Origin: Huiozyma naganishii CBS 8797
Lineage: Eukaryota > Ascomycota > Saccharomycetes > Saccharomycetales > Saccharomycetaceae
Length of the DNA: 64,000 bases
NCBI RefSeq assembly: GCF_000348985.1
Contig: NC_035923.1
Location: forward strand, 620,001 to 684,000
Direction: 5' to 3'
The notes under the pieces are model-generated. The model ran no database searches. It was not told the DNA's origin and saw only the letters and a program-made list of their open reading frames with translations. A program made the position numbers and the translations under genes. Of the stretch, positions 36,869 to 39,400 are shown piece by piece. How positions within the stretch are numbered: the first letter of the stretch is position 1; the number at the start of each line of letters is the position of its first letter.

Positions 36869-39400
36869 ATGGATCTGAAATATTTGGAACCCGGGAGTGA
36901 ACCAGAAAGGCTCAAAGTTCCAGAACTGAGGCGTATCCTCACGGAGAATGACGTGGAGTACTCTCCTAACGCCAAAAAGAAGGCACTTGTAGCGATGTAC
37001 CACGAGTTTATTGACCCGTTGCTACCAAGTCTGAGGGAAAAGTTCCAGTTTAGTGACAGTTCCAGTGGTACCAAGAAGAGGAAAAGAAGGTCAGTGAGTC
37101 GTGATGTTACAGAGGAATCGGATGATAGTGACGGGTCGCTGTCGTCAGCGTCTTCTGTGGATGATGCTATCTTGGAGAGGTTACGCAGACCCTTAGAGAC
37201 ACCACAGAAGAAGAAACAGAGAGTCATATCGTCGGATGAAAGTGTACACAAAGGCGTGCAAAGAACCCCCATCGTGGATAAACTCAACGGTAAGGAACCC
37301 GTGAGAACACCACAAAAGTCTGTCAAGATCACGGAATTTGGCACATCGTCGTCAGAAGAGAGTGATAATGACACACACTCTAGTTTAACAAGAAGTCTGA
37401 ACAGCCAGGGATCGAAGAGTTCCAACCAGGCGGGGGTCAAGTACGATTTTTCTTACAAGAGAAGAACTTTGTCTCCGGATCTAAACAAACTGAAGATTTC
37501 TCCAGCGTTTGCCAAACAACTCAAAAATACCCGTAGTAGAAGCAGCGGTGACTCCACTAGGGAATGGGACACCGCACCCTCGCAGAGGCGTAAGGTCTCT
37601 ACACACCCTGATTCAGGGAGGGTTTCCGGTTTTGAATCGGACATTAACACATCCAACACAAACGCAGCCAATACGGCCGGAGACAACGACGAGCCCGTCG
37701 GAGAGAATTCAGAAGCGTCACGGTTGGTGGATTTCGAAAACATGCCGCAATTCAAAGAAACAGGGAAGGAGGCTTCCGAAGACGTACCACTTTTGGCAGA
37801 AGAAGGACCAGACGTAGACGTGGTTGATACTTATCCGGAGGACGATGACATTGTCGAACTCGTCGATCTAGACGAATCCGTCGACAGGAGCACGTTCAAC
37901 ATGGATTTGCTTTCTAACAGTGAAGTCGAAAAATCTCAACAAAGAGCAGCCGCAATGGAAAATGAACTTTCACCTGAGTTTCAAAGGTCAGAGGAGGAAC
38001 GGGATTCAAACACTGTGTCCCCAAGCAGTATGTCAGATTCAAGTGAAGATGACGAAGCCATACTAATAAGTGAAGATGACGAAGCCATACTAATAAGTGA
38101 CGAAAAGGAGTCTACTAGCACAAGCGTAAGTTCCTCGGTAGATCTGCCCGTCAAGCGTACCAAGAAACCGGTTTTATCTTTCCTCAACTTAATAAAGAAA
38201 CTGTTCTCCACACTACTGAAACTTGCCATTTTTGCCATCTTTCTCACAACTGTGTTGCTAGCCATATGGTATAGAAACGAAAAATTATACACTGGTTTTT
38301 GTGGACATGGAATGGTTGCGCCGTCCCTTCAGGAGCTGGCCCCAAGTTACAAATTTATGGCACATATTGATGATCTCTTGAAAGGGTATAAACCTCATTG
38401 TATTCCGTGCCCAGAGAATGCAATTTGCTATCCGTACCTGAAAATGAGGTGCAAGCCAGAGTACAGATTGGAGCGGTCAAAACTGGCATTCTTTGACCTG
38501 TTCCCGATCCCTGATAAGTGTGTCAAAGACAGCCAAAGAGAGAAACTGATTGCGGAGGTGGTTAAGAAATCATTGGAGTTTTTAAGAGTGAAAAACGCCC
38601 AAATAGAATGTGGGGAGGGCAATAACGACATTGTGAGCGGAATCTCAGAGGGAGACTTGTTCCAAATCTTCGAAGAGGCTAAACCGTCCTTTTTGGATAA
38701 TGAACAATTCGAAGAACTCTGGGAAGATGTCGTCTGTAAATTGAAGAACGAACCCGATATTATATACAGGCAAGTGAGTGATTTTGAATTATTTTCCACA
38801 GAGACAATGAAGAACACGTTTACTAACAGAACCAAACAGTTACACGCCGCTGAAAATGAATTTACAAACGAAGTCGCCCAAAACAATGGGGCCAATGAGG
38901 TTCGTGAGAAAGAGAAATCTGTTCAGCACAGATACAGCTCTTTAAAGTCAAACTATTTGAGATCATTTTCGAAGAAATATATCAGCTTGAGATGTCAATT
39001 TGAGCAGGACTTTTACAGAACTTACCAAAGATATAGATATTTTATCTGGGGAGCACTCGGTATTATTGCAGTTATCAAGTATATTGAGCATCGCTTAAAG
39101 GAACACTTCCGGGAGAAAAAGCTAGTAAATGACCTTGTTGAGAGAGTTATTGCGAAACTAAAGAAGAACAAGGAGGAGAACAAAGAAACTTCCTTTTTGA
39201 GTGCAGTCCAATTGAGAGATTCATTTCTTTCTGGAGAGGGGAATCTGAGGTATAGAAATAGTATATGGAACCGTGTGACTAAAGTGGTGGAGACTAAAAA
39301 TACAAACATCAAATCCGATTTGATTGAGGTACACGGCGATATTATGAAATGTTGGAAATGGATAGGAGAGACTACTCCATTATCCGAAATGTCTAAATAG
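36869..39400 (+). CDS. SRC1: Inner nuclear membrane HeH/LEM-domain protein Src1/Heh1, alternatively spliced
   Basis: Inner nuclear membrane protein that tethers rDNA and telomeres and supports nuclear pore quality control. The unspliced frame has 843 residues. HeH/LEM-like fold at about 12-46 (LKVPELRRILTENDVEYSP), basic NLS (KKRKRR, about 71-76), a long acidic Ser-rich stretch, TM1 at about 444-466 (LLKLAIFAIFLTTVLLAIWY), a lumenal MAN1-type Cys region (IPCPENAICYPYLKMRCKPEY), TM2 at about 723-740 (YFIWGALGIIAVIKYI) and a winged-helix-like C-terminus ending CWKWIGE. Overlapping 5' splice sites at 38770/38774 allow a long 821-residue form and a 668-residue one-TM form. Neighbours match YML034W; HEH2 is its ohnologue. 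Confidence 0.95.
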   Translation: MDLKYLEPGSEPERLKVPELRRILTENDVEYSPNAKKKALVAMYHEFIDPLLPSLREKFQFSDSSSGTKKRKRRSVSRDVTEESDDSDGSLSSASSVDDAILERLRRPLETPQKKKQRVISSDESVHKGVQRTPIVDKLNGKEPVRTPQKSVKITEFGTSSSEESDNDTHSSLTRSLNSQGSKSSNQAGVKYDFSYKRRTLSPDLNKLKISPAFAKQLKNTRSRSSGDSTREWDTAPSQRRKVSTHPDSGRVSGFESDINTSNTNAANTAGDNDEPVGENSEASRLVDFENMPQFKETGKEASEDVPLLAEEGPDVDVVDTYPEDDDIVELVDLDESVDRSTFNMDLLSNSEVEKSQQRAAAMENELSPEFQRSEEERDSNTVSPSSMSDSSEDDEAILISEDDEAILISDEKESTSTSVSSSVDLPVKRTKKPVLSFLNLIKKLFSTLLKLAIFAIFLTTVLLAIWYRNEKLYTGFCGHGMVAPSLQELAPSYKFMAHIDDLLKGYKPHCIPCPENAICYPYLKMRCKPEYRLERSKLAFFDLFPIPDKCVKDSQREKLIAEVVKKSLEFLRVKNAQIECGEGNNDIVSGISEGDLFQIFEEAKPSFLDNEQFEELWEDVVCKLKNEPDIIYRQVSDFELFSTETMKNTFTNRTKQLHAAENEFTNEVAQNNGANEVREKEKSVQHRYSSLKSNYLRSFSKKYISLRCQFEQDFYRTYQRYRYFIWGALGIIAVIKYIEHRLKEHFREKKLVNDLVERVIAKLKKNKEENKETSFLSAVQLRDSFLSGEGNLRYRNSIWNRVTKVVETKNTNIKSDLIEVHGDIMKCWKWIGETTPLSEMSK
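38042..38095 (+). repeat. 27-bp perfect tandem duplication within SRC1
   Basis: Two identical 27-bp units encode SEDDEAILI twice in the acidic region before TM1. The repeat is in frame and looks recent because no synonymous differences have accumulated. Confidence 0.9.
38774..38839 (+). other. SRC1 alternative intron with overlapping GCAAGT/GTGAGT 5' sites
   Basis: GCAAGTGAGT (38770-38779) contains two overlapping 5' splice sites, TACTAAC is at 38821-38827, and CAG ends at 38839. Using GTGAGT (intron 38774-38839, 66 nt) removes 22 codons in frame. Using GCAAGT (38770-38839, 70 nt) shifts the frame and stops at 38943-38945. The same overlapping-site arrangement drives alternative splicing of S. 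cerevisiae SRC1. Confidence 0.85.

Follow-up and report, generated by a model that had tools for sequence, protein, structure and literature searches.

Overlapping 5' splice sites in Huiozyma naganishii SRC1/HEH1 and apparent constraint on the predicted short-isoform frame

The window analysed here, a 64,000-nucleotide stretch of the Huiozyma naganishii CBS 8797 genome (contig NC_035923.1, positions 620,001 to 684,000), contains at 36869-39400 (+) one open frame of 843 codons. The locus raises the question of whether this frame is the protein as read or conceals a spliced gene with two products of different membrane topology, as is known for SRC1/HEH1 (YML034W) of S. cerevisiae. The product carries a HeH domain (Pfam; 41 bits) and an MSC (Man1-Src1 C-terminal) domain (340.9 bits), both above the cut-off. 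The genes for AMP deaminase, Rad52 and Ndc1 adjoin it, an order that we take to be the one around S. cerevisiae SRC1 and that separates SRC1 from HEH2. Thus, judged by its domains and neighbours, the gene is the SRC1/HEH1 orthologue. A search of the genome (10,845,821 bases in 13 contigs) returned a second MSC gene, at C3:561424-562419, which codes for 711 amino acids and is taken for the HEH2 paralogue. It resembles SRC1 in encoding an MSC-domain protein, but its linker is much shorter and it has no counterpart of the SRC1 intron or of the 22 residues that this intron could encode.

Two side observations concern the SRC1 genes themselves. Exon 1 in H. naganishii contains a perfect tandem duplication with a 27-nt period (38045-38100; EDDEAILIS twice), each copy of which includes a branch-point-like TACTAAT. 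The Henningerozyma blattae relative TBLA_0C01910 (P0081; 1148 aa) is listed with a Zn2-C6 domain (PF00172) in addition to HeH and MSC, as the result of either gene fusion or a faulty gene model.

The candidate intron opens with GCAAGTGAGT (38770-38779), in which a GCAAGT and a GTGAGT donor overlap, and continues to a TACTAAC and a CAG (Table 1). Within the gene, GCAAGTGAGT and TACTAAC occur once each. The branch A is at 38826 and the CAG ends 13 nt beyond it, at 38839; an earlier CAG, which ends at 38829, lies only 3 nt past the branch A and is too near for use. A splice from 38773 to 38840 takes out 66 nt for a product of 821 aa; one from 38769 to 38840 takes out 70 nt for a product of 668 aa, with its stop codon at 38943-38945. 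The retained form would have 843 aa. The motif coordinates, the two removals and the three product lengths had all been given in the initial annotation and were reproduced by sequence and frame arithmetic, as was the lack of an in-frame stop that makes the retained form possible. The genome (10.85 Mb) holds 17 copies of GCAAGTGAGT as such, against 4 of the reversed control, and a single copy followed by TACTAAC after 30-60 nt, against 0 for the control. The looser pattern GTGAGT-N30-60-TACTAAC matched once in the window against 0.05 expected, with one match in 5 of 100 shuffles.

Table 1 Features of the H. naganishii SRC1/HEH1 gene, in window positions; splice products and helices are predictions.
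Feature	Position	Strand	Basis or remark
SRC1 exon 1 to the upstream (GC) donor	36869..38769	+	HeH and first part of MSC
SRC1 exon 1, downstream donor variant	runs to 38773	+	
First membrane helix, residues 448-466, common to all three possible products	38210..38266	+	hydropathy and model
Upstream donor GCAAGT, GC type, leading to the 668-residue short form	38770..38775	+	sequence, frame arithmetic, short-frame constraint
Downstream donor GTGAGT, overlapping GCAAGT, leading to the 821-residue long form	38774..38779	+	junction site shared by the spliced records of relatives
SRC1 intron, 66 nt (70 nt from 38770), in frame, stop-free	38774..38839	+	retention adds 22 residues
Branch point TACTAAC	38821..38827	+	sequence
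3' splice site CAG	38837..38839	+	sequence
Short-isoform tail, 35 residues including the junction Ser, and stop; shifted frame	38840..38945	+	
Exon-2 block of strongest short-frame constraint; long frame NGANEVREKEKSV	38885..38923	+	first among 341 overlapping windows in the sliding test; 205 compatible cells out of 272 changed ones
Second membrane helix, residues 724-740 of the 843-residue reading; not in the short form	39038..39088	+	
Exon 2 as read in the long frame, with the linker, second membrane helix, C-terminal end of MSC and stop	38840..39400	+	

The initial annotation had likened this arrangement to the overlapping 5' sites by which S. cerevisiae SRC1 makes a long and a short isoform, and PMC3983031 upholds that description of the yeast gene: wild-type cells show about 60/40 short to long, both forms are stable in upf1 mutants, and loss of Hub1 cuts the short form threefold. 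As summarised in PMC8431670, the S. cerevisiae short form is without the second helix and C-terminal domain; its tail is given as about 49 residues in PMC8393842, against 35 residues predicted in H. naganishii. The H. naganishii gene shares with its orthologue (Src1-L/Src1-S) a pair of 5' sites set 4 nt from each other, a single 3' site, a long form with two membrane helices and a short form with one helix plus a frame-shifted tail, the products here being predicted. It differs in having a shorter intron with no stop, where that of the S. cerevisiae-like unspliced row P0039 has one. The genome also holds HUB1 and, on C7 (L013), SNU66, the latter with one HIND-like motif by a pattern that we assume to represent such motifs. 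For S. cerevisiae Snu66, by comparison, two HIND motifs are reported (PMC4141198).

In the mechanism we propose, a single branch point and a single 3' site would pair with one or the other of the 5' sites, which lie four bases from each other. Use of GTGAGT would keep the frame and lead on to the second membrane helix and the MSC end of the long form. Use of GCAAGT, a GC donor, probably aided by Hub1 bound to Snu66, would shift the frame into the 35-residue tail, and the short form would stop beyond its single membrane helix, leaving its C-terminus on the luminal side. The anatomy, frame arithmetic, domains, neighbours, HUB1 and SNU66 and the constraint on the short tail described below are observed, and by analogy with S. 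cerevisiae we infer the use of both donors, the action of Hub1 and the two topologies. It is very probable that the gene is an SRC1/HEH1 with a two-donor switch as in S. cerevisiae. The gene identity, intron anatomy and two-topology reading put forward initially are supported, with the short-frame constraint as added evidence. The two-donor switch itself is already known from S. cerevisiae; the evidence for short-frame constraint and the openness of the intron in relatives extend the initial annotation.

Of the two helices attributed to the long form, the first is clear, with a 19-residue hydropathy of 2.39 at residue 448 and a modelled helix at 434-475. The second fell below the 1.3 cut in the initial hydropathy scan; the highest mean over 17 residues there is 1.48, at residue 724, compared with 2.14 in S. 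cerevisiae Src1, and AlphaFold2 places a long helix, 723-769, in this region. The model has a mean pLDDT of 56.9 and was used for order and helices only. In it the linker 645-691 is disordered (pLDDT <50) and the retained-intron residues 636-657 lie at the edge of this poorly ordered linker, so that retention should still give a two-helix protein. No hydropathy peak above 1.3 was found within the 22 intron-coded residues.

To compare relatives, three protein searches were combined, for a total of 85 proteins, 31 rows of which were not scored at the splice point. Searches of viral and genome contigs yielded no DNA from a related yeast. The relatives were compared as proteins, with the donor seen through the residues that it encodes, and protein tests replaced a codon comparison. 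The splice point lies directly after an Arg-Gln pair, and in S. cerevisiae Src1 (P0043) and other spliced records exon 2 begins directly after the same Arg-Gln. The unspliced rows (n = 54) read R-Q-V-S in 47 cases, R-Q-V without S in 6 and R-H-V-S in 1, where R-Q-V-S is the read-out of CAA GTG AGT. Raw ORFs of relatives stop shortly behind R-Q-V, and 24 of the 54 unspliced relatives stop inside the intron. The proposal that the overlapping donors are conserved therefore holds at the protein level, by the 47 of 54 rows with R-Q-V-S, the donor bases themselves being seen in H. naganishii only.

The single R-H-V-S row is P0079, and on this reading its upstream donor would be GCAYGT, not GCAAGT. 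The rows with R-Q-V but without S at the same point are distant ones (P0061, P0062, P0065, P0066, P0069 and P0071), which suggests, at the level of protein sequence, that the overlapping donor is younger than the position of the intron. Rows P0003, P0006, P0007, P0010, P0026, P0041, P0047, P0048, P0055, P0057 and P0077, all from named Saccharomycetaceae, read straight through the intron. These records probably represent unrecognised splicing in annotation, and the records of several species that read through the SRC1 intron give a doubtful protein. Row P0046, from a 2,686-base contig, has the short-form junction and a 50-residue tail and falls beside Saccharomyces in the tree. Its junction and tree position alone mark it as a putative Saccharomyces transcript, and P0040 and P0046 were presumed to be, and treated as, one species.

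The first part of exon 2 appears to be under constraint in the short-isoform frame. The predicted H. naganishii tail is identical to the P0046 tail at 9 of 35 positions, compared with 4 of 35 for the long linker. When synonymous codons were shuffled with the long protein kept, the short-frame likeness had p values of 0.0022 (global) and 0.0013 (local); without gaps it had a p value of 0.00045, or 0.0056 minus the first four residues, and codon shuffles of the Saccharomyces side gave 0.00005. The reverse test, which kept the tail and measured long-frame likeness, fell short of significance (p = 0.09). The tail length is uninformative, as 0.54 of codon shuffles are open for 34 codons. By these likenesses, the short tail of H. 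naganishii appears to be related to the known short-isoform tail.

A second set of tests used the linker across the family. Of 45 linker rows, three were taken out: P0079, which had been cut wrongly, P0011, which is in another frame, and P0042, whose annotation is odd. Across the remaining 42, two long-linker columns hold residues with NAY codons (column 19, N 18, D 16, H 7 and Y 1; column 27, 40 of 42), and such codons fix the first two bases of the short-frame codon as A-T/A-C. With one row per group, 24 of the 42 rows entered the compatibility test and 25 relatives the sliding test. Within the block of strongest constraint, the 205 changed cells compatible with the Saccharomyces short tail, out of 272 in 24 representatives, compare with an expected fraction of 0.38 and were matched in 0 of 400 simulations, related rows not being independent. 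With the gene's own DNA as reference, the sliding test placed this block first, with a z of 11.3. The short-frame background had a median z of 3.2, with 95% at 7.5 and another stretch at 9.0, and the other shifted frame peaked at 7.5 elsewhere with a median of 1.9. Because the background is raised in both shifted frames, the BLOSUM-based null is too generous alone, and we rely on the rank and on the codon shuffles. Such constraint supports use of the GCAAGT donor.

In Naumovozyma dairenensis (NDAI_0C00790; P0011), a match to the Saccharomyces short tail lies behind R-Q-V-S in the frame of the protein's own second helix (score 70; shuffles 24.6, sd 4.9, 0 of 5000). Its match to the H. naganishii tail is weak (p = 0.087). 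Either the splice forms have swapped roles in this species or the sequence contains a frame error.

Retention of the intron is the basis of the first alternative to be weighed, a gene with three outputs in which retained mRNA would also be translated into the 843-residue form and selection would keep the intron readable, as proposed for PTC7. We consider it rather unlikely. The intron is 3n and stop-free in H. naganishii, and the extra 22 residues would fall in the luminal linker, where, with the linker modelled as disordered, an insert is likely harmless. The initial annotation had called the missing stop odd; it is indeed missing, but this is not unusual, as among the 74 relatives found with the exon-1 query (P0079 and P0004 stand outside this count) the intron is open in 25, contains a stop in 23 and is unscored in 26. 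The annotated records are biased towards open, because a spliced record gives no view of the intron. Among raw ORFs only (n = 40), 13 are open, 21 closed and 6 unscored, against a chance of 0.06-0.11 of being both 3n and open (about 0.09 at the length and composition of the H. naganishii intron). Grouping at a distance of 0.30 left 4 open, 11 closed and 1 mixed (n = 16; p = 0.007 with the mixed group counted as open), at 0.25 7 open and 13 closed (n = 20), and at 0.15 10 open and 18 closed (n = 28). These figures may favour a kept frame. Against it, the rows are related and were set against a simple chance model, a quick tree of 72 rows needs no fewer than 8 switches between open and closed, and Saccharomyces, Kluyveromyces and others have a closed frame.

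The intron peptides vary from genus to genus. In 27 open rows they span 21-32 codons, so that changes in intron length kept the frame. Compared with nine relatives, however, the H. naganishii peptide is unlike eight, and only K. africana is alike (p = 0.0005). Conservation of the 22 residues as protein had been proposed as a sign against splicing; eight of the nine relatives do not show it, and K. africana may. Its peptide, also of 22 codons, is identical at 10 of 22 residues, and splice signals dictate 5 of these 10. The likeness could stem from the protein as well as from RNA signals: constraint on the branch site or on U-rich RNA, as in the stretch that follows the donor, might produce it too. 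PMC2911113 describes stop-less 3n introns as counterselected in general. PTC7 has a stop-free 3n intron in many Saccharomycetaceae species, according to PMC3597508, and its insert bears a membrane helix and changes the protein's location, as described in PMC4607428. The H. naganishii SRC1 intron is likewise 3n and stop-free. Unlike that of PTC7, the SRC1 insert is a hydrophilic linker extension that has no hydropathy peak or membrane helix, many relatives lost or never had an open SRC1 frame, and retention is here a prediction.

A second alternative is that GTGAGT alone is used and GCAAGT is the unavoidable read-out of the Arg-Gln codons, with no short form made. In four coding stretches AGG accounts for 39 of 136 Arg codons and CAA for 47 of 81 Gln codons. 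As both are common codons here, GCAAGT needs no special cause, and GC donors are weak. We nonetheless judge this improbable, since the short-frame constraint in exon 2 would have no reason if the short form were absent, and HUB1 is kept in the genome. That there is no intron at all, the 843-residue frame being the protein and the motifs arising by chance, is very improbable: the frame is open and the records of several relatives read through (e.g. P0057, P0010 and P0007), but the motif combination is unique in the genome, those 24 unspliced relatives stop within the intron, the HEH2 paralogue is without the 22 residues, and S. cerevisiae Src1 is spliced at the same place (PMC3983031).

The two-donor switch matters because, in budding yeasts, alternative splicing that yields two functional proteins is rare. 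As of 2013, according to PMC3597508, function had been demonstrated for the long Src1 form alone, and reviews of later work, including PMC8431670 and PMC8393842, describe short Src1 as limiting ESCRT recruitment to the nuclear envelope. The titles and abstract openings of the literature searched contain no treatment of short-frame constraint or of a readable SRC1 intron, which is weak evidence of novelty, and Hooks 2014 (PMC4202332) lists introns of K. naganishii, the species now placed in Huiozyma from Kazachstania, with SRC1 unnamed in its main text. As a tentative possibility, which we hold to be less probable than the switch, the 4-nt choice and the readable intron may together yield three proteins. 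The first ~30 codons of exon 2 would then be dual-frame, with selection across the family mainly guarding the short frame. The short tail would be an ancient functional peptide that predates the yeast whole-genome duplication and stands in the second-helix frame in Naumovozyma dairenensis, and the intron would also be kept translatable in H. naganishii and several other genera. Short-frame constraint from Eremothecium and Lachancea to Kazachstania would date the switch before the whole-genome duplication and, if this constraint holds, the short tail would be a defined target for experiments.
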